From: Christensenella sp.
Lineage (GTDB): Bacteria > Bacillota > Clostridia > Christensenellales > UBA3700
Length of the DNA: 64,000 nucleotides
Direction of reading: 5' to 3'
Assembly: GCA_022784465.1 (NCBI GenBank)
Contig: JALFUR010000010.1
Location: forward strand, 62,001-126,000
The translations under genes and the position numbers were made by a program. A model generated the notes under the pieces. The model was not told the DNA's origin and made no database searches. It was given only the letters and a program-made list of their open reading frames with translations. Within the stretch, counting starts at the first letter, position 1, and each line of letters starts with the position of its first letter. Positions 18,359 through 46,560 of this stretch are shown piece after piece.

Positions 18359-20149
18359 ATGATTAACACGTTTTGTAGATATCCATTATGGGAAGTAAGT
18401 AAGGATTTAGTTGATGTAGCACAAGGAAGAAAGCCTGCTGACATCGTTATAACTAATTCAAGATTAATTAATGTTTGCACAAAAGAAATCCAAGATAATA
18501 TGCAAGTGGCAATTGTTAAAGGAAGAATTGCTATGGTTGGAGATTGCTCTCACTGTATTAAAGAGGGTACAAAAGTTATTGATGCAAATGGTCAATATAT
18601 AGCTCCAGGATTTATGGATGGACATATTCATATTGAATCTTCAATGCTTTCTGTTGGAGAATATGCAAAAGCAGTTGTGCCTCATGGAACAACTGGAGTA
18701 TATATAGATCCTCATGAGATTTGTAATGTTCTTGGACTTGAAGGCGTAAAATGCATGATACAAGATTCAAAAAGAGTTGCGCTAAAAACGATGGTTACAA
18801 CTCCTTCTTGCGTTCCAGCAATTCCTGGTTTTGAAGATACAGGTTCATTTATTGGACCTAATGAAATAAAGCAAACTATGGAATGGAAAGAAGTAGTTGG
18901 GCTTGGCGAAATGATGAACTTTGTAGGCATCAATGCGAGCAATGAGACTACGCATGCCATTGTAGGAGAAACTCTAAAAGCAGGGAAAATAGTTACAGGT
19001 CATTATTCTATGCCAGAGACAGAGAGAGGACTAAATTCATATATTGCATCAGGTGTTAGATGCTGCCATGAATCAACAAGAGAGATAGATGCTCTTGCAA
19101 AAATGAGAATGGGAATGTATGCAATGCTCAGAGAAGGCTCTGCTTGGCACGATTTACAAGAAGTAGCAAAGGCAATAACAAAGCATGAAGTAGATTCAAG
19201 ATTTGCTTGTTTAATTTCTGATGATTCTCATCCGCACACATTAATCAACGAAGGGCATTTAGATCATATTGTAGCAAGAGCTATAGAAGAGGGAATTGAT
19301 CCAATTTCTGCTATTCAAATGGTTACAATAAATTGCGCTCAATGTTATCAAATTGATCACGATTTAGGTTCAATTGCTCCAAGTAAGTGTGCAGATATTG
19401 TGTTTATTGACAATTTAGAAAAATGTCATGTAACAAAGGTAATAGTAGATGGAGAAGTTGTTGCTGAAAATGGAGAATATATAAAAGAAATTAAAGATTA
19501 TGTATATCCAGAGTGGGCAACTCATTCAATTCATATTAAAGATAAGATTAATAAAGAAACTTTTATAATTCCATCAAATAACGAAAAAGAGACAGTTAGG
19601 GTAATAGAAGTAATTCCAGCAAAAGTGGCGACTATTGAAAGACACATAACACTTCCTGTTATAAATGGTTCAATTGCAGCAGATACAACTCAAGACACCC
19701 TAAAAGCTTTTGTATTTGAAAGACACCACGAAACAGGAAAAATAGGAAAAGGTTTTGTAAAAGGGTTTGGAATAAAAGGTGGAGCATTGGCTCAAACTGT
19801 TGCTCACGATGCTCATAATCTATTTGTTGTTGGAGATAACGATGAAGACATGGCGCTTGCTTGCAATGAACTAATTAAATGCGGCGGCGGAATGGTTGTT
19901 GTAAAAAATGGCAAAATTATTGGCAAAGTAGAATTGCCAATAGCGGGACTAATTAGCGACAAAAGCCTAGAAGAGACAAACAAGCAAGTAATAGGGGTTG
20001 AAAAAGCATGGAGAGAGCTTGGATGTACACATCCATCACCGTTCATGACTATGGCAATTATTCCTCTTGCATGTTTGCCAACACTTAGATTAACAGACAG
20101 AGGAATTGTTGATTGTACAACATTTAGTTTTGTTGATTTAATAGTGTAA
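18359..20149 (+). CDS. ade: Adenine deaminase
   Basis: Converts adenine to hypoxanthine and ammonia in purine salvage. 596 residues, the standard amidohydrolase-type Ade length. Metal-binding and catalytic blocks are APGFMDGHIHIESSM, VVPHGTTGVYIDPHEICNV, and SDDSHPHTLINEGHLDHIV. The C-terminal ADE domain contains GFGIKGGALAQTVAHDAHN and IPLACLPTLRLTDRG. It is monocistronic with AGGAAGG before the ATG. It complements the guanine-regulated xpt and nucleoside importer near 46-52 kb. Confidence 0.95.
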   Translation: MINTFCRYPLWEVSKDLVDVAQGRKPADIVITNSRLINVCTKEIQDNMQVAIVKGRIAMVGDCSHCIKEGTKVIDANGQYIAPGFMDGHIHIESSMLSVGEYAKAVVPHGTTGVYIDPHEICNVLGLEGVKCMIQDSKRVALKTMVTTPSCVPAIPGFEDTGSFIGPNEIKQTMEWKEVVGLGEMMNFVGINASNETTHAIVGETLKAGKIVTGHYSMPETERGLNSYIASGVRCCHESTREIDALAKMRMGMYAMLREGSAWHDLQEVAKAITKHEVDSRFACLISDDSHPHTLINEGHLDHIVARAIEEGIDPISAIQMVTINCAQCYQIDHDLGSIAPSKCADIVFIDNLEKCHVTKVIVDGEVVAENGEYIKEIKDYVYPEWATHSIHIKDKINKETFIIPSNNEKETVRVIEVIPAKVATIERHITLPVINGSIAADTTQDTLKAFVFERHHETGKIGKGFVKGFGIKGGALAQTVAHDAHNLFVVGDNDEDMALACNELIKCGGGMVVVKNGKIIGKVELPIAGLISDKSLEETNKQVIGVEKAWRELGCTHPSPFMTMAIIPLACLPTLRLTDRGIVDCTTFSFVDLIV

Positions 20150-20218
20150 AATTGTTTATAAAAAAAACGTTAAAGTATGCTATATATCAACCAAAAAAGC
20201 ATAAATAACAAAAAAAGA

Positions 20219-20248
20219 TTGACAATAAAAAAATGCTAGATTTATACT
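20219..20248 (+). promoter_or_regulatory. Promoter of the aromatic amino acid operon
   Basis: TTGACA at 20219-20224 and TATACT at 20243-20248 are separated by 18 bases. The expected start of transcription is near 20255, about three bases before the leader-peptide ATG. Confidence 0.7.
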
Positions 20249-20257
20249 ATAAGCACT

Positions 20258-20332
20258 ATGAATAGAGTTTTAAACTTTACAAACGGATATTATTACTTTA
20301 GCAACTATTACTTTAGCAGTTGTAAGTTTTAA
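20258..20332 (+). CDS. Tyr/Phe-rich attenuation leader peptide
   Basis: A 24-codon frame starting MNRVLNFTNG and then reading YYYFSNYYFSS before its end. Ten of 24 residues are Tyr (5) or Phe (5), clustered in codons at 20288-20314, ahead of an operon for Phe and Tyr synthesis. There is no Shine-Dalgarno sequence, and the predicted transcript start is only about three bases upstream, so it would be translated as a leaderless or nearly leaderless message. The stop (20330-20332) is one base before the antiterminator strand. The layout fits ribosome stalling at Tyr/Phe codons. Confidence 0.75.
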   Translation: MNRVLNFTNGYYYFSNYYFSSCKF

Positions 20333-20333
20333 T

Positions 20334-20424
20334 GCGGTTTTGTTATAAATAAAAAAAACATTTCATAAATAGGAAAAATAAATATTTTGATAATTAAGCC
20401 GCCGATACAAAGGTGGCTTTTTTT
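20334..20424 (+). terminator. Attenuator: antiterminator strand and intrinsic terminator
   Basis: AAGCCGCC (20396-20403) and GGTGGCTT (20412-20419) form an 8-bp stem followed by a run of T to 20424, 18 bases before the DAHP synthase start. Upstream GCGGTTT (20334-20340) can pair with AAGCCGC (20396-20402) and prevent the terminator. A ribosome at the leader stop would cover GCGGTTT and let the terminator form. One stalled at Tyr/Phe codons would leave it free. Confidence 0.75.
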
Positions 20425-20442
20425 ATCAGGTAGGAGCAAAAT

Positions 20443-21456
20443 ATGATTATTGTAGTAAAAAAGGATTGTGAAAAGAAACAGTTAGACAATTTAACAAAGT
20501 GGATTAAAAGTCTTGGTTTAAGAATTGACTTATCAAAAGGTGATAATTCAATAATTATGGGTCTTATTGGCGATACATCTAAAGTAGATATCGATTTAAT
20601 TAGATCACTAGATATTGTTGATACAGTAAAAAGAATTCAACAACCATATAAACTTGCTAATAGACAATTCCATCCAGAGGATACTATTGTTGATGTTTGT
20701 GGACACAAATTCGGTGGAAATAATTTCCAATTAATTGCTGGTCCTTGCTCTGTAGAAAATGAAAAGCAAATTATTGGAATTGCACAAGCTGTTAAAGCTT
20801 CAGGAGCAAACATTTTAAGAGGAGGAGCATTCAAGCCAAGAACATCACCATATGCATTCCAAGGACTAAAAGGTGAAGGATTAAAATTGCTTCTAAAAGC
20901 AAAGGCTGAGACAGGTATGCCAATTTGTACTGAACTTATGGCAGAAAAGTATATAGATATGTTTGAAGATGTAGACATTATTCAAATTGGCGCTAGAAAC
21001 ATGCAAAACTTTGATTTACTTAAAGCAGTAGGTAAGTTGAAAAAGCCAGTTTTGTTAAAAAGAGGTCTTGCAAATACAATAGAAGAATGGTTAATGAGTG
21101 CTGAATACATTATGTCAGAGGGAAACGATCAAGTAATTTTATGCGAAAGAGGTATAAGAACTTTTGAGCCAATGACAAGAAATACACTTGATTTATCTGC
21201 TATTCCTCTTCTTAGAGAATTAACACATTTACCAATTATTGTTGACCCATCTCATGCAACAGGACTTAATAGACTTGTAGATCCTATGTCTCTTGCTTCT
21301 GTTGGCGCTGGTGCTGATGGTCTTATTATTGAAGTTCATAACGACCCAACACATGCTCTTTGTGATGGTGCTCAATCATTACGCCCGGAGCAATTTGATG
21401 CATTAGTAAAGAAGATAGACGTTATGCTTCCACTTGTAAATAGAGAGAGAAAATAA
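20443..21456 (+). CDS. aroF: 3-deoxy-7-phosphoheptulonate synthase, type I-beta with regulatory domain
   Basis: First step of the shikimate pathway: PEP + erythrose-4-phosphate to DAHP. 337 residues. Residues 1-~75 form a ferredoxin-like (ACT-like) domain as in the Thermotoga enzyme, where it mediates Tyr/Phe feedback. The barrel has LIAGPCSVE, RGGAFKPRTSPYAFQGL, IGARNMQNFDLL and VDPSHATG. It is the first gene of the operon after the attenuator, with TAGGAG before the ATG. Feedback inhibition by Phe/Tyr is inferred from the family. Confidence 0.95.
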   Translation: MIIVVKKDCEKKQLDNLTKWIKSLGLRIDLSKGDNSIIMGLIGDTSKVDIDLIRSLDIVDTVKRIQQPYKLANRQFHPEDTIVDVCGHKFGGNNFQLIAGPCSVENEKQIIGIAQAVKASGANILRGGAFKPRTSPYAFQGLKGEGLKLLLKAKAETGMPICTELMAEKYIDMFEDVDIIQIGARNMQNFDLLKAVGKLKKPVLLKRGLANTIEEWLMSAEYIMSEGNDQVILCERGIRTFEPMTRNTLDLSAIPLLRELTHLPIIVDPSHATGLNRLVDPMSLASVGAGADGLIIEVHNDPTHALCDGAQSLRPEQFDALVKKIDVMLPLVNRERK

Positions 21457-21457
21457 A

Positions 21458-22324
21458 ATGAATATAGGAATTATTGGTTTAGGTTTAATAGGAGGCTCTA
21501 TTGGTAGAGCAATAAAAAAGAAAACAAATCATGTTGTTTATGGTCTAGATAAAGACGAAAAAACCATGATAAAAGCGACTCTTGTTGAAGCAATAGATGC
21601 ACCTTTAGATGATGCAAATGTCAAAGACGTAGACATATTGATTATTGCTCTATATCCTAAAGCAATAATTGATTGCATAAAAGAATATGCTCCAAAGTTA
21701 AAAGATGGCGCAATAATTATAGATTGCGGCGGAAATAAAAGAGAGATATGTAAGTTTATGGAGCAAATGCATATAACCTACCCAAATATAGATTTCATTG
21801 GCGGACATCCAATGGCAGGTAGAGAATTCAGTGGATTTTCTCATTCTACAGCTTCATTGTTTGAAAAGGCTACTATGCTTATGGTGCCAATTCATAATTC
21901 TATAGAAACATTATATAAAGTTAAAGAATTTATATTAGAACTTGGCTTTGAAGGGGTTGTTATTACAAACCCAACCGAGCACGATGAAATGATTTCCTTT
22001 ACATCTCAACTTGCTCATATTGTTTCATCTAGTTATATTAAAAATCCTCTTACTACAACGCACTATGGATTTTCAGCAGGATCTTTTAAAGATATGACTA
22101 GAGTAGCTAAGTTAAATCCTGAAATGTGGACTGAAATAATGTTAGACAATAAGGATTATTTAATTGCTCAAATAGACGTATTAATTAAAAATCTAGAAAA
22201 CTTCAAAAAAGCAATGCAAGAAAATGACAAAGAAGAACTTTCTAAGTTGTTAGATGAAGGAAGAGCAATTAAAGAAGAAGCAGAAAAACTAAGAAACGAA
22301 AAGACATCTCAAAGGATTAAATAA
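21458..22324 (+). CDS. tyrA: Prephenate dehydrogenase
   Basis: NAD-dependent oxidative decarboxylation of prephenate to 4-hydroxyphenylpyruvate, toward Tyr. 288 residues: Rossmann start IGIIGLGLIGGSIGRAI, then the substrate block IGGHPMAGREFSGFSHS and the helical C-domain with TSQLAHIVSSSYI. There is no C-terminal ACT domain and no fused chorismate mutase, so regulation would fall on the leader and DAHP synthase. It begins one base after aroF. Confidence 0.93.
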   Translation: MNIGIIGLGLIGGSIGRAIKKKTNHVVYGLDKDEKTMIKATLVEAIDAPLDDANVKDVDILIIALYPKAIIDCIKEYAPKLKDGAIIIDCGGNKREICKFMEQMHITYPNIDFIGGHPMAGREFSGFSHSTASLFEKATMLMVPIHNSIETLYKVKEFILELGFEGVVITNPTEHDEMISFTSQLAHIVSSSYIKNPLTTTHYGFSAGSFKDMTRVAKLNPEMWTEIMLDNKDYLIAQIDVLIKNLENFKKAMQENDKEELSKLLDEGRAIKEEAEKLRNEKTSQRIK

Positions 22325-23380
22325 ATGGAAAAACTTACAGTAAAGGTAGATAAAAGCTACGACATATTAATTGGACAAGATATACTAGGCTCAATTGGAC
22401 ATAGAGCTAAAGATTTAAATGGGCTTGGTAAGGTTTTAGTTGTATCTGACGATATTGTGCATTCTTTATATGGAGAAGTTGTATACAATTCTTTAAAAGA
22501 CGCTGGATATAATGTATTTGAGTTTACATTTAATCATGGAGAAAAAAGCAAAAATCTAAATACGTTTTCGCAAATTATTAATTTTTTGGCAGAACAAGGA
22601 TTTGTAAGATCAGATTTAATCATAGCGCTTGGTGGCGGTGTAGTTGGAGATATATCTGGATTTGTTGCCGCTTCGTATATGAGAGGCATTGACTATATTC
22701 AAGTTCCAACAACACTTTTGTCCATGATAGATTCTTCTGTTGGAGGAAAAACAGCGGTAGATTTAGAAGCAGGCAAAAATCTAGTTGGAGCTTTTTATCA
22801 ACCAAGATTAGTTTTAATAGATACAAATACTCTGTTGACTCTTCCTTGTATTGAATATAAAAATGGAATGGGAGAAGGCATTAAATATGCAGTGCTTGAA
22901 GGCGGAGAACTTAAGGATTTAGTTCTTGATGGGGTAAAATTGTCAGATAGTAAAAGCATAACTAGATTTGTATATTTATGTGTTGATTCAAAGAGAAAAA
23001 TCGTAGAAGAGGATGAAAAGGAATCTAATATTAGACGTTTATTAAACTTAGGACATACTTTTGCGCATGCTATAGAAAAACTAAGTTTATATGAAATACC
23101 ACATGGATTATGTGTTGCGGCGGGACTAGATATAATAGCAAGAATAAGTAATGCTCATTCAAAGCTTAGTGATATAGATTACATGACTATTTTAAATATT
23201 TTAGAAAAATATGAATTAAATAATATGAATCCTTATACTATCGATCAAATGATAGACATTATAAAACTAGACAAAAAAGTAGAAAGCGATAATATAAACT
23301 TTGTTATGCCATATGCTTTTGGTGATTGCAGAATAGAAAAAGTACAATTATCTAAAATAAAGGAGTTTGTAAAGTGCTAG
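22325..23380 (+). CDS. aroB: 3-dehydroquinate synthase
   Basis: Cyclises DAHP to 3-dehydroquinate using NAD and Zn. 351 residues. Signatures are ALGGGVVGDISGFVAASYMRG, QVPTTLLSMIDSSVGGKTAVD and KNLVGAFYQP. Zn ligands are in GEGIKYAV, NLGHTFAHAIE and PHGLCVAAGL. It starts directly after the tyrA stop and overlaps aroA by 7 bases. Confidence 0.96.
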   Translation: MEKLTVKVDKSYDILIGQDILGSIGHRAKDLNGLGKVLVVSDDIVHSLYGEVVYNSLKDAGYNVFEFTFNHGEKSKNLNTFSQIINFLAEQGFVRSDLIIALGGGVVGDISGFVAASYMRGIDYIQVPTTLLSMIDSSVGGKTAVDLEAGKNLVGAFYQPRLVLIDTNTLLTLPCIEYKNGMGEGIKYAVLEGGELKDLVLDGVKLSDSKSITRFVYLCVDSKRKIVEEDEKESNIRRLLNLGHTFAHAIEKLSLYEIPHGLCVAAGLDIIARISNAHSKLSDIDYMTILNILEKYELNNMNPYTIDQMIDIIKLDKKVESDNINFVMPYAFGDCRIEKVQLSKIKEFVKC

Positions 23381-24630
23381 CAAAAATTAAACCTCATACA
23401 ATGGGAGGCGTAATAAAAGCAATTCCATCTAAATCTTATGCTCATAGAATTATGCTATGTGCAATGCTTTCTAATATGCAAACACAAATTGTTGGCAATT
23501 ATGAAAGTAAGGATATGGAAGCAACACTTTCGTGTATTAAAGCTCTTGGCTGCAAAGTGAATATTCAAAATGGGGTTTTGTATCTTTCTAAAGAAAAGAA
23601 AATGCAAGATGAGATAATTTTAGATTGTATAGAATCAGGCTCAACTGTTAGATTTATTTTGCCTATAGTTGCTGCTTTAGGAGTAGAGGCAAAAGTAATA
23701 GGCAAAGAAGGATTACAAAAACGACCACTAAAAGATCTTATAGATGTATTAAAAGAACATGGGGAGTATATAGATAGCGATTTTCTACCTATTGTTATGA
23801 AGGGAAAGATTAAGCCTGGTGAATACAAAATTAGAGGAGATGTTTCATCTCAATATATAACAGGACTACTTCTTGCACTTCCTATTTTAGAAGGTGACAG
23901 CGAAATAGTAATTGAGGGAGAATTGGTTTCTAAAAAATATATAGACATCACACTTGATGTTCAAAAGGAGTTTGGAATACAAATTGAACAAACAAATAGT
24001 GGATTTAAAGTTAAAGGAAACCAAAAGTACATTGCTCCAAAGAAAATAGTTGTACAAGGCGATTGGTCAAATGCAGCATTTTGGTTATCTTTAGGTGCAA
24101 TTAATAATGATATAGAGATCTCTGGTCTTTCTCTAGATACACAACAAGGAGATAGAGAGATTCTTCAAATACTAATGGGAATGGGTGCAAAAGTTCAAAT
24201 AATGAACGACGTTATTTCTGTCAAAAAGTCTAAGTTAAATGCTACTACAATAGACATGCAAAACATTCCAGATTTAGCTCCAATTGTAAGCATATTAATG
24301 GCAAGTGCTGAAGGTATTAGCGTAATGAAGAATGTAGATAGATTAAGAATAAAAGAAACAGATAGACTTGCAGCAATTATTGAGACTCTTCAAAAGATGG
24401 GAGTTAAATGCAGATATCAAAACAATGAATTATCTATTTTAGGTGGAGATAAGTTGTGTGCATTTTCAAATGGGGCATATAATGACCATAGAATGGTTAT
24501 GACACAAGCAATAGCTGCTTCCGTTGCAAAAGGGGAATGCGTTATTGAAGGAGTCGAAGCTAAAGATAAATCTTACCCAAGTTTCTTTGTGGATTATAAG
24601 GCATTAGGAGGAGATGTATATGTTAAGTAG
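23374..24630 (+). CDS. aroA: 5-enolpyruvylshikimate-3-phosphate synthase
   Basis: Joins shikimate-3-phosphate with PEP. 418 residues. Motifs are PSKSYAHRIMLCAML, GSTVRFILPIVAALG, the RGDVSSQYITGLLLALP region, RIKETDRLAAI and YNDHRMVMTQAIAA. It begins with GTG inside the aroB end, behind AAAGGAG. Its last 11 bases overlap the chosen aroC start. Confidence 0.96.
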   Translation: MLAKIKPHTMGGVIKAIPSKSYAHRIMLCAMLSNMQTQIVGNYESKDMEATLSCIKALGCKVNIQNGVLYLSKEKKMQDEIILDCIESGSTVRFILPIVAALGVEAKVIGKEGLQKRPLKDLIDVLKEHGEYIDSDFLPIVMKGKIKPGEYKIRGDVSSQYITGLLLALPILEGDSEIVIEGELVSKKYIDITLDVQKEFGIQIEQTNSGFKVKGNQKYIAPKKIVVQGDWSNAAFWLSLGAINNDIEISGLSLDTQQGDREILQILMGMGAKVQIMNDVISVKKSKLNATTIDMQNIPDLAPIVSILMASAEGISVMKNVDRLRIKETDRLAAIIETLQKMGVKCRYQNNELSILGGDKLCAFSNGAYNDHRMVMTQAIAASVAKGECVIEGVEAKDKSYPSFFVDYKALGGDVYVK

Positions 24631-25696
24631 TTTAGATAATTTAAAAATAGAAATTAATGGTGCGTCTCATGCCGAAAGCATAGATGTTACAGTGTGGGGA
24701 ATTCCACAAGGAATAAAAATAGATTTAGATGAGTTACAAGAATATGTAGATAGACGTAAAGCAAGAAAAACAATATATTCTACAAAAAGACTAGAGGAAG
24801 ATAAAATTAATGTTTTATCTGGAATAGAAAATGGTGTAACAACAGGAGATGCAATTAAATGTGTTGTATACAACTTAGATCCTCATTCTAATGATTATAC
24901 TAAACTTCAAGATACACCTCGTCCTTCTCATGCTGATTATGTAGCAAAAGTTAAATATAATGGCAAAGAAGATATGAGGGGTGGTGGAAGATTCTCAGGA
25001 AGAATGACACTAACAATTTGTATCTTAGGTGGTATTGCAAAACAGATTTTAAAAAACCACAACATACAAGTTGAAGGATATGTGCAATCAATTGCGGGCA
25101 TTAATTCAACGAGCTATAAAGATAGAGATATAAAAGCAGAAGAGATACAAGCTTTAGATAATAGCTTTAGAGTTATTGATTTAGATAAAAAAGAGCTAAT
25201 GCTTGAAAAAATACAGCAAGCTGCAGCGAATAAAGATTCGGTAGGTGGAGTTGTTGAAGCTATTGCATACAATTTACCTGTTGGCCTTGGAGGTCCTTTA
25301 TTTGAATCCATGGAAGGAAAAATCTCATATGCAATGTTTGCAGTTCCTGCAGTTAAAGGCATTGAATTTGGATCAGGTTTTGACATATCTAAAATGACAG
25401 GCTCAACTGCAAATGATTGTTTTTATTATGATGAGAACAAGAATGTTAAAACATATACAAACAATAATGGTGGTATAAATGGTGGAATCACAAATGGAAT
25501 GCCATTGACTATACGAGTTGCTCTTAAGCCAACACCATCTATTGCTCAAGAACAAAAGACTATAGATATGGCAACAAAGACAAATACAACGATACAAATA
25601 AAAGGAAGACATGATTCTTGTATTGTTCCAAGAGCAGTAGTATGCGTTGAATCAGTACTTGCATTATGCATATTAGACAGTATAATAAAACAATAA
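24620..25696 (+). CDS. aroC: Chorismate synthase
   Basis: FMN-dependent conversion of EPSP to chorismate. 358 residues. The N-terminal NGASHAESIDVTVWGIPQG and the GGGRFSGRMTL and SGFDISKMTGSTAND blocks are recognisable, as is NNNGGINGGITNGMP. ATG 24620 is preferred over the in-frame ATG at 24614 because the GGAGGAG at 24606-24612 is then properly spaced. The family needs reduced FMN, which ties this operon to the flavin-transport gene that follows. Confidence 0.95.
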   Translation: MLSSLDNLKIEINGASHAESIDVTVWGIPQGIKIDLDELQEYVDRRKARKTIYSTKRLEEDKINVLSGIENGVTTGDAIKCVVYNLDPHSNDYTKLQDTPRPSHADYVAKVKYNGKEDMRGGGRFSGRMTLTICILGGIAKQILKNHNIQVEGYVQSIAGINSTSYKDRDIKAEEIQALDNSFRVIDLDKKELMLEKIQQAAANKDSVGGVVEAIAYNLPVGLGGPLFESMEGKISYAMFAVPAVKGIEFGSGFDISKMTGSTANDCFYYDENKNVKTYTNNNGGINGGITNGMPLTIRVALKPTPSIAQEQKTIDMATKTNTTIQIKGRHDSCIVPRAVVCVESVLALCILDSIIKQ

Positions 25697-25715: not shown

Positions 25716-26855
25716 ATGTTGGAAGATTACAGAAACAAAATTGATGAAATTGATAACGAGATAGCAAGATTATTAAATGAAAGAATGTTAATGTCAAAAG
25801 CTATTGGAGAAGAAAAGGCTAAATCAAACACAGGTGTTGTAGATAAAAACCGTGAAAAAAACATTTTAAATAGAGTAACTAAACTTGTTAATCCTGAATA
25901 CAGGGTTTATACCAAACTTATATATGAAATGATTTTTGAAACAAGTAAAGCATACCAAAGACAATTTATATGCAAAGAATCCGCAATTGTTTCTGAGATT
26001 AAGCAAGTGCTTGCTTCAGGCGTTGAAAAGTTTCCAACTAGCGCCACAGTTGCATGTCAAGGAGTACAAGGCGCATATTCAAATCTTGCAGCAGAAAAGC
26101 TATTTGAATTATCCGATATTATTTATCTAAAAACATGGGAAGCGGTTTTTGATGCGGTTGAAAAAGGTTTTTGCGAATATGGCATTTTGCCAATAGAAAA
26201 CTCTTCTGCAGGTTCTGTTATGGCTGTATATGATTTAATGAAAAAACATAATTGTTATATTGTTAAATCATGTAAGCTTCGTGTTCAACATCATCTTCTT
26301 GCAAAAAATGGTGTTAAATTGCAAGATATCAAGGAAATTGTTTCTCATCAACAAGCCCTTGATCAATGCTCTGAATTAATTAATAGTTTAAAGGGCGTAA
26401 AAATCACAGTTTGTGATAATACAGCTATGGCGGCAAAGATGGTTGCTGAGAGCAATAGAACAGATATTGCATGTATCTCTTCAAGAGAATGTGCAAACTT
26501 ATATAACCTAGGAATTGTAGAAAGCAACATTCAAAACAACGATAACAATTACACAAGATTTATTTGTATTTCTAAAAAACTACAAATATTTGAAAACTCA
26601 AATAAAATAAGTATTATGGTTACTCTTCCTCACGAAAAAGGAAGTCTAAATAAGACATTAAATAAATTTTCTGCACTTGGATTGAATTTAACAAAACTTG
26701 AATCAAGACCAATGCCAAATACAGATTTTGAGTTCTGGTTCTATTTTGATTTTGAAGCAAACATAAAAGATGAAGAAGTGCAAAAGCTAATAGCAGAATT
26801 TGATTCAGGTACAGAGCAATTTACATTCTTAGGTAGTTATTCAGAGGTAATGTAG
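25716..26855 (+). CDS. pheA: Bifunctional chorismate mutase / prephenate dehydratase (P-protein)
   Basis: Two steps to phenylpyruvate. 379 residues in three parts. AroQ-type chorismate mutase occupies ~1-90 (RNKIDEIDNEIARLLNERM). Prephenate dehydratase occupies ~110-290 (VACQGVQGAYSNLAAEKLF, GILPIENSSAGSVMAVYDLM, NYTRFICIS). A C-terminal ACT domain carries the Phe-binding ESRPMPNTDFEFWFY block. Phe feedback inhibition is expected from the family. It also supplies the only chorismate mutase in the operon. Confidence 0.95.
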   Translation: MLEDYRNKIDEIDNEIARLLNERMLMSKAIGEEKAKSNTGVVDKNREKNILNRVTKLVNPEYRVYTKLIYEMIFETSKAYQRQFICKESAIVSEIKQVLASGVEKFPTSATVACQGVQGAYSNLAAEKLFELSDIIYLKTWEAVFDAVEKGFCEYGILPIENSSAGSVMAVYDLMKKHNCYIVKSCKLRVQHHLLAKNGVKLQDIKEIVSHQQALDQCSELINSLKGVKITVCDNTAMAAKMVAESNRTDIACISSRECANLYNLGIVESNIQNNDNNYTRFICISKKLQIFENSNKISIMVTLPHEKGSLNKTLNKFSALGLNLTKLESRPMPNTDFEFWFYFDFEANIKDEEVQKLIAEFDSGTEQFTFLGSYSEVM

Positions 26856-26856
26856 G

Positions 26857-28092
26857 ATGGCACTATACGGTCTAATAGGTGAAAAACTAGGACATAGTTT
26901 TTCTAAGATAATACATGAGAAAATGGGGTACAGTTACGACCTTGTTGAATTAAAAAAGGAAGAGGTAGAGTCCTTTGTAAAGAGTAAAAAATATAAAGGC
27001 TTTAATGTTACTATTCCTTATAAGCAAGTTGTAATGCCATTTTTAGATGTAATTGATGAATCTGCAAAACTTATTGGATCTGTAAATACTGTAATTAATA
27101 AAGACGGCAAACTTATTGGATACAACACAGACATTTTTGGCATGGAGTATGCATTCAAACAAGCTGGAATAGTTGTCGAAAATAAAAAAGTTATAATACT
27201 AGGCTCTGGTGGTACTTATGCAACTGCATATGCACTATGTAAAAAGCAAAAAGCAAAGCAAATAATTAACGTTTCAAGAAGTGGCGAAAATAATTATTCA
27301 AATTTAGATAAGCATTTTGATGCGCAAGTAATTATTAATACAACGCCTGTAGGAATGTATCCAAACAATTATAATTGTCTAGTAAATCTAAAAGATTTTA
27401 CAAAACTTGAAGGAGTTTTTGATGCAATATATAATCCGTTGAAAACACAATTGTTATTACAATGCGAAGAAAAATTTACCGCTAAATCAGGATACTGCAA
27501 TGGACTAAAAATGCTTGTTGCTCAAGCAAAATATGCAAGGGATATTTTCTTTGGCAATCAAGCGGATTTTAACATAATAGAAAAAATTGTTTCAGAAATA
27601 GAAAGCGATAAGCAAAACATCGTTTTAATTGGAATGCCAGCATCTGGTAAAAGTTCTATTGGCAAGATAGTTGCAAGTGCATTAAACAAAGAATTTATAG
27701 ATACTGACCAAAAAATAATAGAAAAAGCAGGATGCTCGATCCCAGAGATTTTTGACAAACAAGGTGAAAAAGCTTTTAGACAAATAGAAAAACAAGTCGC
27801 ATTAGAGGTAGCAATAACACAAGGTAAAGTAATAGCTACAGGCGGTGGCATTATTTTAGACAAAGAAAATATAGACGCACTAAAACAAAATGGAATATGC
27901 GTTTTCCTAGATAGAGATATTGAACTTTTAACAGGAGAGGGAAGACCGCTTTCTTCATCAAAAGAAGCAATACAAAACTTGTATGATAGCAGAATACATC
28001 TTTACAATAAATACGCAGATATAAAAGTTATGTCTAATGAATCCGTCGATAAAGTCGCTCAAGATATTTTAGAGAAAATAAAGTTAAATTAA
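26857..28092 (+). CDS. Fused shikimate dehydrogenase-shikimate kinase
   Basis: 411 residues joining two sequential pathway enzymes. Residues 1-~250 are AroE (YGLIGEKLGHSFSKIIHEKMG, FNVTIPYKQVVMPFLD, NTDIFGMEYAF, ILGSGGTYATAYA). Residues ~255-411 are AroK with P-loop GMPASGKSS (259-267), DTDQKIIEKAG, E/FRQIEKQV and ATGGGIILD. Order AroE-AroK matches the reaction order. There is one base between pheA and this gene. No dehydroquinate dehydratase (AroD/AroQ) is seen in the operon, so that step must come from elsewhere in the genome. Confidence 0.93.
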   Translation: MALYGLIGEKLGHSFSKIIHEKMGYSYDLVELKKEEVESFVKSKKYKGFNVTIPYKQVVMPFLDVIDESAKLIGSVNTVINKDGKLIGYNTDIFGMEYAFKQAGIVVENKKVIILGSGGTYATAYALCKKQKAKQIINVSRSGENNYSNLDKHFDAQVIINTTPVGMYPNNYNCLVNLKDFTKLEGVFDAIYNPLKTQLLLQCEEKFTAKSGYCNGLKMLVAQAKYARDIFFGNQADFNIIEKIVSEIESDKQNIVLIGMPASGKSSIGKIVASALNKEFIDTDQKIIEKAGCSIPEIFDKQGEKAFRQIEKQVALEVAITQGKVIATGGGIILDKENIDALKQNGICVFLDRDIELLTGEGRPLSSSKEAIQNLYDSRIHLYNKYADIKVMSNESVDKVAQDILEKIKLN

Positions 28093-41940: not shown

Positions 41941-42188
41941 ATATAGACAAAAACCTTTGAAGTGAATAAGTAGCTTTTAAAGAGATCTACAGAGAGTCTT
42001 GGGATGGTGCGACAAGATGAAATCTAGAAAGTGAATGGGTCACGGAGGGCGGCCAATAACCGACGGGAGTTCAACTCGTTAACAATAGAATATGTATGAT
42101 GGTACATAAAACAACATGAGCACATGTAGGTGGCATAATAAAAGTAAATAACAAGACTTTTATCCTTTGAGGGTAGAAGTCTTTTTTT
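41941..42188 (+). promoter_or_regulatory. Tryptophan-specific T-box leader
   Basis: Stem I carries AGAGAGTCTT (41991-42000), GGTGCGA in the apical part and the specifier loop GTGAATGGGTCAC, with TGG (42036-42038) placed as the Trp specifier. The T-box core AGGTGGCA (42128-42135) contains TGGC, which would pair with a tRNA ending GCCA, matching the G73 of bacterial tRNA-Trp. A 13-bp terminator stem (42153-42184, two G-U pairs) ends in seven T. Uncharged tRNA-Trp should allow read-through into the transporter genes. Confidence 0.88.
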
Positions 42189-42313: not shown

Positions 42314-43288
42314 ATGAAAAACATAAAGAAATTATTAGTGATAGCAATAGTATTATCAATGGCAATGGTTGCCACATGTGCATTTACTGCATGTCAAGAT
42401 TCAACAAAAGGAACAATAGGTATAATTCAATTTGGAACACATGAATCATTAAATGATTGTTATAACGGAATCATTTTAGGATTAAAAGAAGAATTAGGAG
42501 ATGATTTTAATAATTACAAAATCGAACTTCAAAACTCAAACTTTGATCCATCTACATCTGGCGCTCAAGCAAACGAGTTTGTTGGCAAGAACGTAAGTTT
42601 AATCGGTGCTATTGCAACACCATCAGCTATGGCTGCAGCATCTGCTGCTCAAGATTCTCAAATTCCAGTAGTATATTGTGCAGTATCTGATCCAAAATCC
42701 GCTGGATTAACAACAATGGAAAATGTTACAGGAACATCAGATTTGCTTGATTATGCATCACAATTAGAATTGATTAAAGCTTTCATCCCAACAGTAGATA
42801 AGATTGGAGTTTTATATACAACAACAGAAGCAAACTCAGCAGCACAATTAGCGGAACTTAAAAGACATGCAAGTGAGTTAGGCATTGAAATTGTTAGTAA
42901 ATCTATTACAAATGCAAATGAAATTCCTTCAGCAACAGATGTTTTATTAACAGAAGAAGGATTAGATTGTATAACAAACTTAACAGACAATACTGTTGTA
43001 GGCGCACTTGATGTTATTCTTGAAAAAACTAATGCGTTGAACATTCCAGTATTTGGAAGTGAAATAGATCAAGTTAAAGCTGGTTGTCTAGCTTCTGCAT
43101 CATTAGATTATGTTGCTTTAGGAAAAACAACAGGAATTATGGTGGCAAAAATACTAAAAGGAGAAATAACTGCTACAAACGATGAAGCAAAACAAATAGA
43201 AGAAAGCTTTAATTGCTACAATTCAAGCGTTGCTTCAACATTAGGATTTACAGTTCCTTCAATTGCTGGCAGAGACATAGCAGAATAA
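42314..43288 (+). CDS. trpX: ABC transporter substrate-binding lipoprotein, TrpX-type
   Basis: 324 residues; signal peptide with lipobox FTAC (Cys27). The mature protein has the ABC_sub_bind (PF04392) pattern: IGIIQFGTHESLNDCYNGI, VSLIGAIATPSAMAAASAAQ, IPVVYCAVSDPKSAGLT, NVTGTSDLLD and FGSEIDQVKAGCLASASLDY. Members act with two other subunits for Trp (TrpXYZ) or Tyr. The Trp T-box selects tryptophan. AAGGAG precedes the ATG. Confidence 0.88.
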   Translation: MKNIKKLLVIAIVLSMAMVATCAFTACQDSTKGTIGIIQFGTHESLNDCYNGIILGLKEELGDDFNNYKIELQNSNFDPSTSGAQANEFVGKNVSLIGAIATPSAMAAASAAQDSQIPVVYCAVSDPKSAGLTTMENVTGTSDLLDYASQLELIKAFIPTVDKIGVLYTTTEANSAAQLAELKRHASELGIEIVSKSITNANEIPSATDVLLTEEGLDCITNLTDNTVVGALDVILEKTNALNIPVFGSEIDQVKAGCLASASLDYVALGKTTGIMVAKILKGEITATNDEAKQIEESFNCYNSSVASTLGFTVPSIAGRDIAE

Positions 43289-46418: not shown

Positions 46419-46447
46419 TTGACTTAAATAGAGGAAAAAGATAAACT
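46419..46447 (+). promoter_or_regulatory. Promoter of the purine-regulated operon
   Basis: TTGACT (46419-46424) and TAAACT (46442-46447), 17 bases apart; transcription start near 46454, just before the aptamer. Confidence 0.6.
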
Positions 46448-46461
46448 ATATATATCAAACC

Positions 46462-46530
46462 TACCAATATAGGTTCGGATGGATGGCCCGAATGTTTCTA
46501 CCGTAATGTCATAAATTACGACTATTGGTA
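46462..46530 (+). promoter_or_regulatory. Guanine-type purine riboswitch with altered loop L3
   Basis: P1 is TACCAATA/TATTGGTA (perfect). P2 is GTTCGG/CCGAAT. J2/3 is GTTTCTACC and P3 is GTAAT/ATTAC. J3/1 is GACTAT, with C at the specificity position (46522) indicating guanine rather than adenine. Spacing matches the xpt aptamer base for base. L2 is TGGATGG, keeping the two conserved G. L3 is GTCATAA instead of the usual CCGTAAA. The downstream gene is xpt. Confidence 0.85.
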
Positions 46531-46560
46531 AAAAAAATATGGAATATTTATCTATTTATG

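Follow-up and report, generated by a model that had tools for sequence, protein, structure and literature searches.

The window, a stretch of 64,000 nucleotides from a Christensenella sp. contig, derives from a gut-type Clostridia bacterium and contains a mini-message rich in Tyr and Phe codons that precedes genes of Phe and Tyr biosynthesis. These genes, of which that for DAHP synthase is the first, follow one another with gaps of no more than ∼20 bases or overlap (Table 1). On the same strand, upstream of the mini-message, lies a gene for adenine deaminase (NCBIfam) with its stop codon at 20149. An initial annotation, made from the letters of the window, had placed a 24-codon frame with five Tyr and five Phe codons between a near-consensus promoter and an intrinsic terminator, 5′ of the DAHP synthase gene. 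This placement is confirmed, as are the 24 codons and the five Tyr codons, but the Phe codons number four. The short open reading frame, predicted to be translated, thus carries tandem codons of the amino acids that the operon would supply.

Table 1. Features of the Tyr/Phe leader region and of the operon that follows it (positions in the window).
Feature	Position	Strand	Basis and remarks
-35 element TTGACA	20219-20224	+	Promoter scan; aligned and conserved across the genus
-10 element TATACT	20243-20248	+	Promoter scan, 18-bp spacer; conserved across the genus
Predicted 5′ UTR, ∼3 nt (ACU)	20255-20257	+	Promoter geometry
Leader peptide ORF	20258-20332	+	24 codons, MNRVLNFTNGYYYFSNYYFSSCKF then stop; 5 Tyr and 4 Phe (translation)
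Control codons Tyr-Tyr-Tyr-Phe (codons 11-14)	20288-20299	+	Sequence, stalled-ribosome folding
Control codons Tyr-Tyr-Phe (codons 17-19)	20306-20314	+	Sequence, stalled-ribosome folding
Antiterminator strand 2, GCGGTTTT	20334-20341	+	Invariant in four genus genomes
Strand 3, terminator 5′ arm, partner of strand 2 or strand 4	20396-20403	+	Terminator scan, duplexes, folding
Strand 4, intrinsic terminator 3′ arm and U-run	20412-20424	+	Terminator scan
GGAG Shine-Dalgarno of the DAHP synthase gene	20433-20436	+	Sequence
DAHP synthase (3-deoxy-7-phosphoheptulonate synthase, TIGR01361 type)	20443-21456	+	NCBIfam
Prephenate dehydrogenase (tyrA)	21458-22324	+	NCBIfam
3-Dehydroquinate synthase (aroB)	22325-23380	+	NCBIfam
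EPSP synthase (aroA)	23374-24630	+	NCBIfam
Chorismate synthase (aroC)	24614-25696	+	NCBIfam
Chorismate mutase-prephenate dehydratase (pheA)	25716-26855	+	NCBIfam
Shikimate dehydrogenase-shikimate kinase fusion (aroE-aroK)	26857-28092	+	NCBIfam

Random aromatic-rich frames are present elsewhere in the AT-rich window, where several others were found, and the arrangement could in principle be fortuitous, with the hairpin serving as the terminator of the adenine deaminase gene and the frame being a chance product of AT-rich DNA. Such an origin is scarcely credible, as at least seven Tyr/Phe residues within 12 codons of an ATG frame arise in only 3 of 5000 dinucleotide shuffles of 20150-20442, and the combination of promoter, adjacent ATG, short ORF and terminator occurs at this site alone in the 464 kb scanned (∼324 kb of the window genome, window included, and 140 kb of one relative; the genome baselines are thus drawn from samples rather than from the whole genome). 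No further leaderless attenuator was found in these 464 kb of two genomes. Moreover, the architecture is conserved beside different upstream genes, a conservation that already refutes coincidence. DAHP synthase upstream regions were assembled through a genome search of relatives, named genomes and extracted upstream regions; these relatives are mostly MAGs that are not independent of one another and include near-copies. At least six Tyr/Phe residues in 12 codons of an ATG frame are present in 74 of 108 upstream regions (0.8% of shuffles), and at least five in 12 codons in 171 of 214, mostly from Clostridia (3.9% of shuffles), so that the Tyr/Phe codons are conserved in relatives, contrary to the lack of conservation that the initial annotation had named as grounds for refutation. 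By name, the carriers include Christensenella sp., Oscillospiraceae and Lachnospiraceae Clostridia, together with a few MAGs that bear the labels Lentisphaerae or Kiritimatiellae (labels as given). In other genera of the window's own family the leader is absent from most genomes examined, with candidates in G009, G014 and G018. As a separate observation, genera g3 and g4 of this family (L015, L018, L020, L021, L023 and L026-L029) possess a DAHP synthase gene that lacks an aromatic leader and is ∼60% identical to that of the window, which is lower than the identity of genes from other families and suggests gene exchange.

The promoter upstream of the leader, TTGACA-18-TATACT, scores 11 of 12 consensus matches and is the single promoter-like site on the + strand within 20050-20500. 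Its -10 box lies 9 bases from the leader ATG, within the ∼12 bases taken as the limit for a leaderless ORF, and no Shine-Dalgarno match of four or more bases precedes the ATG at the window locus. Taken as 7 bases past the -10 box, the transcription start is predicted at about A20255, leaving a 5′ UTR of 3 nt. The three genus relatives share this geometry, with -10 to ATG distances of 9-10 bases in all four and predicted 5′ UTRs of 3-4 bases. Across all leaders whose promoter could be recognised, the -10 to ATG distance is bimodal, falling at either 6-11 or 13-44 bases; it is exactly 6 in 32 of 125 leaders, where transcription with the usual spacing would start at the A of AUG itself, and 7-11 in the other short ones. 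Short distances go with the lack of a Shine-Dalgarno and long ones with its presence (33:2 versus 7:67 unique peptides, Fisher p = 1e-18). The choice of start codon had itself weighed promoter and Shine-Dalgarno signals, and the same association among leaders with a single possible start (18:1 versus 6:42, p = 2e-10) is therefore an important control. The prediction of a leaderless leader, read from promoter spacing and from relatives, is thus well supported, in agreement with the ∼3-base 5′ UTR lacking a Shine-Dalgarno proposed in the initial annotation.

Starts directly at the 5′ end are not the norm in this genome, in which 197 of 268 sampled ORFs are led by a Shine-Dalgarno. Each of three genomes nevertheless contains 17 copies of the pattern TTGACA-N16-18-TANNNT-N5-10-ATG, as opposed to 2-3 of the reversed control (∼6- to 8-fold), and some copies start ordinary genes; 5′-end initiation is therefore plausibly available. 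When the DAHP synthases are arranged in a tree, a single supported clade holds almost all of the leaderless leaders, with Shine-Dalgarno ones intermixed, and the state changes at least five times, a rough count given that the bootstrap is unsettled. A set of leaders in which 13-17 bases separate the -10 box from the ATG (L116, L127, L134, L135, L139, L141, L144, L146, L149 and L160, mainly f3 and g66), most of them with GGTGA or GAGG near the ATG, has a 5′ UTR of very few bases, perhaps representing a transition between the two types of start. In family f16, the Tyr/Phe leaders L168, L170, L173, L180-L183 and L186 have neither promoter nor Shine-Dalgarno beside the ATG; the preceding bases resemble a conserved gene end, and these leaders may be translationally coupled to the upstream gene.

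It is conceivable that the Tyr/Phe attenuator is not leaderless in practice, with most transcripts starting further upstream, by read-through from adenine deaminase or from an unrecognised promoter, and the AUG being reached by some other route that dispenses with a Shine-Dalgarno. A terminator scan found none between the adenine deaminase gene and the promoter, so that transcription of the former might enter the leader region, and the genus distances of 9-10 bases exceed the precise 6-base spacing of the most clear-cut leaderless relatives. We consider an upstream start rather unlikely, as TTGACA...TATACT has no good competitor nearby on its strand, Shine-Dalgarno loss tracks the short distance across relatives and, when judged by comparison, the promoter stays beside the ATG in each of the four genus members that gave a match, although their upstream sequences differ. 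The last of these bears on the start well upstream that the initial annotation had named as grounds for refutation.

Between the leader and the first structural gene, an intrinsic terminator (AAGCCGCC-8-GGTGGCTT followed by a T-run) spans 20396-20424, the scan returning 1 where 0.1 was expected. The heptamer GCGGTTT (20334-20340) starts one base past the leader stop codon. Its partner is AAGCCGC (20396-20402) in the terminator 5′ arm, with one G-U in the duplex, which confirms the antiterminator of the initial annotation. In the alignment of the four genus genomes, strand 2 (GCGGTTTT) is unchanged, as compared with a mean leader column identity of 67%, whereas strand 3 occurs as AAGCCGC, AAGAACCGC and AAAGCCGC with complementarity to strand 2 retained. 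As strand 2 is invariant in these four sequences, covariation counts are not pressed. The strand 2:strand 3 duplex outperforms shuffles in all four genus genomes (p 0 to 0.04). Outside the genus, p < 0.05 is reached in 38 of 139 leaders (∼7 expected), and in 9 of 34 for the other leaderless relatives, which are weaker individually; the support there is collective, per-sequence p-values being modest.

We modelled the effect of the ribosome by folding the RNA downstream of it before strand 4 is made. With the A site on the Tyr/Phe codons 7-19, strand 3 of the window leader is predicted to be sequestered at 0.85-0.88, the main aromatic codons giving 0.86-0.88 and a stall at codons 11-14 ∼0.87, and the value falls to 0.05 at the stop codon; in the model the antiterminator thus forms on stalling and is excluded at the stop, consistent with its conservation in the genus. 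In a set of 139 leaders, the mean difference between stall and stop is 0.25 for leaderless leaders and 0.37 for the others, against 0.09 and 0.14, respectively, on shuffling. A pause or protector 1:2 hairpin is common, though not universal, among known attenuators, and for this reason was not counted as defining. The minimum free energy fold of the window leader exhibits a long-range leader hairpin; a 1:2 hairpin is not detectable in this leader against shuffles (p = 0.87), and the model therefore predicts read-through if the leader is untranslated. G004 differs in this respect (p = 0.01), and p < 0.05 is obtained in 55 of 139 relatives.

An alternative in which translation of the leader ORF acts in some other way, for example through Rho-dependent polarity or translational coupling, and the hairpin is of minor importance, would accommodate those leader-bearing relatives in which no terminator is recognised by the criteria used, as well as leaders (L168, L170, L180-L183) devoid of an adjacent promoter or Shine-Dalgarno. 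We regard it as very unlikely given the strong terminator in the window and genus, the invariant strand 2 directly past the stop codon, and the Shine-Dalgarno that the DAHP synthase gene itself carries.

Sequence and comparison show the leader, the geometry of its promoter, the terminator, the pairing of the antiterminator and the conservation of these parts, and the locus is most probably a ribosome-mediated attenuator with a leaderless start, responding to charged tRNA-Tyr and tRNA-Phe and governing the operon of the Phe/Tyr branch. The attenuation reading of the initial annotation is thereby supported by the relatives, by the genus-invariant strand 2 and by the stalled-ribosome folding. We infer the transcription start, 5′-end initiation, stalling and starvation response to proceed as follows. 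Transcription would begin ∼3 bases 5′ of the leader AUG, a proximity that would allow a ribosome to engage the 5′ end on its emergence, with no need of a Shine-Dalgarno. When Tyr-tRNA and Phe-tRNA are ample, the ribosome would reach the stop codon and mask GCGGTTT in strand 2, so that strand 3 would pair with strand 4 and transcription would stop. When either Tyr or Phe is scarce, the ribosome would stall in the YYYF...YYF stretch with strand 2 unmasked, and the pairing of strand 2 with strand 3 would preclude the terminator and permit transcription of the operon.

Clostridia are usually credited with T-box control, and a T-box, or another RNA that binds a tRNA or metabolite, might be held responsible for the operon, with the short ORF being incidental. 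The genome does make use of T-boxes: seven matches lie elsewhere in it, with following genes that include pheS and trpX (for a TrpX-type substrate-binding protein) and others that we take, from their translations, to be thrS, cysE, a TrpB-type synthase and asnB. At the leader itself, Rfam RF00230 gave no match in 20100-20460, and both T-box and other Rfam RNAs were rejected, none being found at gathering score and none convincing at E up to 5. The leader region is also shorter than a T-box needs, and the aromatic codons are conserved in translation among divergent leaders; control by such an RNA is thus highly improbable. With a T-box before pheS and the leader before the biosynthesis genes, tRNA-Phe would be sensed in two ways, one of them apparently by leader peptide. 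Within the window, a T-box-like RNA of 72.8 bits, which is under the Rfam cut-off, lies at 41948-42170 (+) and precedes a gene at 42314 for a TrpX-type tryptophan ABC transporter substrate-binding protein, and a purine riboswitch aptamer (56 bits) lies at 46445-46544 (+).

Enteric bacteria have classical ribosome-mediated attenuators before amino acid operons (trp, his, pheA), which share with the window a leader rich in the regulating residue, mutually exclusive antiterminator and terminator, and a terminator before the first gene. The window differs from them in its lack of a Shine-Dalgarno, its predicted 3-base 5′ UTR, its undetectable 1:2 hairpin and the predicted joint sensing of Tyr and Phe for a complete shikimate-Phe-Tyr operon. 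In Streptomyces, RNA-seq has defined leaderless leader peptides ahead of amino acid genes (TrpL1, LeuL1/2 and IlvL), of which TrpL1 and LeuL2 have terminator hairpins (PMC8079986); these examples concern other amino acids in Actinobacteria, in which leaderless genes are common. Similarly, the poly-Cys attenuator ORFs reported for mycobacteria are short and leaderless, sense one amino acid and control an operon (Canestrari et al. 2020, as cited in PMC9094748); there the amino acid is cysteine, and the cys operons are devoid of conserved upstream intrinsic terminators (PMC1262725).

Closer in phylogeny, the Acholeplasma uORFC-13-1 motif upstream of aroF is a proposed uORF with an RBS (PMC8632094). 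It has in common with the window a short ORF with Phe codon(s), an intrinsic terminator, a position upstream of a DAHP synthase gene and a host that is a Gram-positive relative, but, compared by description, it has the RBS that the window lacks and no Tyr run is described; it is confined to Acholeplasma and unassigned environmental sequences (PMC8632094). Leader-peptide attenuators of Firmicutes are also described for his (PMC9413887, PMC2965389) and for ilv-leu in Staphylococcus aureus (PMC5794164) and Listeria (PMC5864092). Those of his and of S. aureus ilv-leu belong to the same mechanism class with different amino acids, and no leaderless start is described in the passages and abstracts consulted. 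The initial annotation held that Gram-positives use such attenuation rarely for aromatic genes, T-box or TRAP being usual; in view of his, ilv-leu and the Acholeplasma aroF uORF, it is less rare in Firmicutes than this implied. The open-access literature, to which our search was confined, yielded neither a Tyr/Phe attenuator from Clostridia nor a leaderless attenuator from Firmicutes. A leaderless Tyr/Phe attenuator in Clostridia therefore appears new, within a known class of attenuator.

Clostridia would thereby gain a widespread, predicted Tyr/Phe leader-peptide attenuator, of which close copies that differ mainly in a Shine-Dalgarno versus a 5′-end start offer a natural comparison. A previous survey found the predicted leaderless genes of Firmicutes mainly in Lactobacillales and Mycoplasma (PMC3160421), and a regulatory ORF that is both conserved and leaderless in Clostridia therefore makes it testable how leaderless initiation handles the tight timing of attenuation. 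More tentatively, it is possible that, within a single clostridial lineage, this one attenuator has alternated repeatedly between starts with a Shine-Dalgarno and strictly leaderless ones, the latter with transcription starting on the A of AUG, and that leaderless initiation has then become part of the mechanism. If so, the ribosome would engage the first RNA bases to leave RNA polymerase and thereby set the synchrony of ribosome and polymerase, and the attenuator would be sensitive to the 70S/30S state of ribosomes as well as to charged tRNA.

In a search of the order for other leaderless leader peptides, those for His gave no match, and recurrent Trp candidates were rejected as they represent a conserved leaderless membrane protein. 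In other genera of the window's family (L292-L297), this small protein begins MKKYNFVTWW or MQKYNFLTWW, and its ATG follows the -10 box at a distance of exactly 6 bases, a promoter spacing that identifies its gene as a conserved leaderless ordinary gene.
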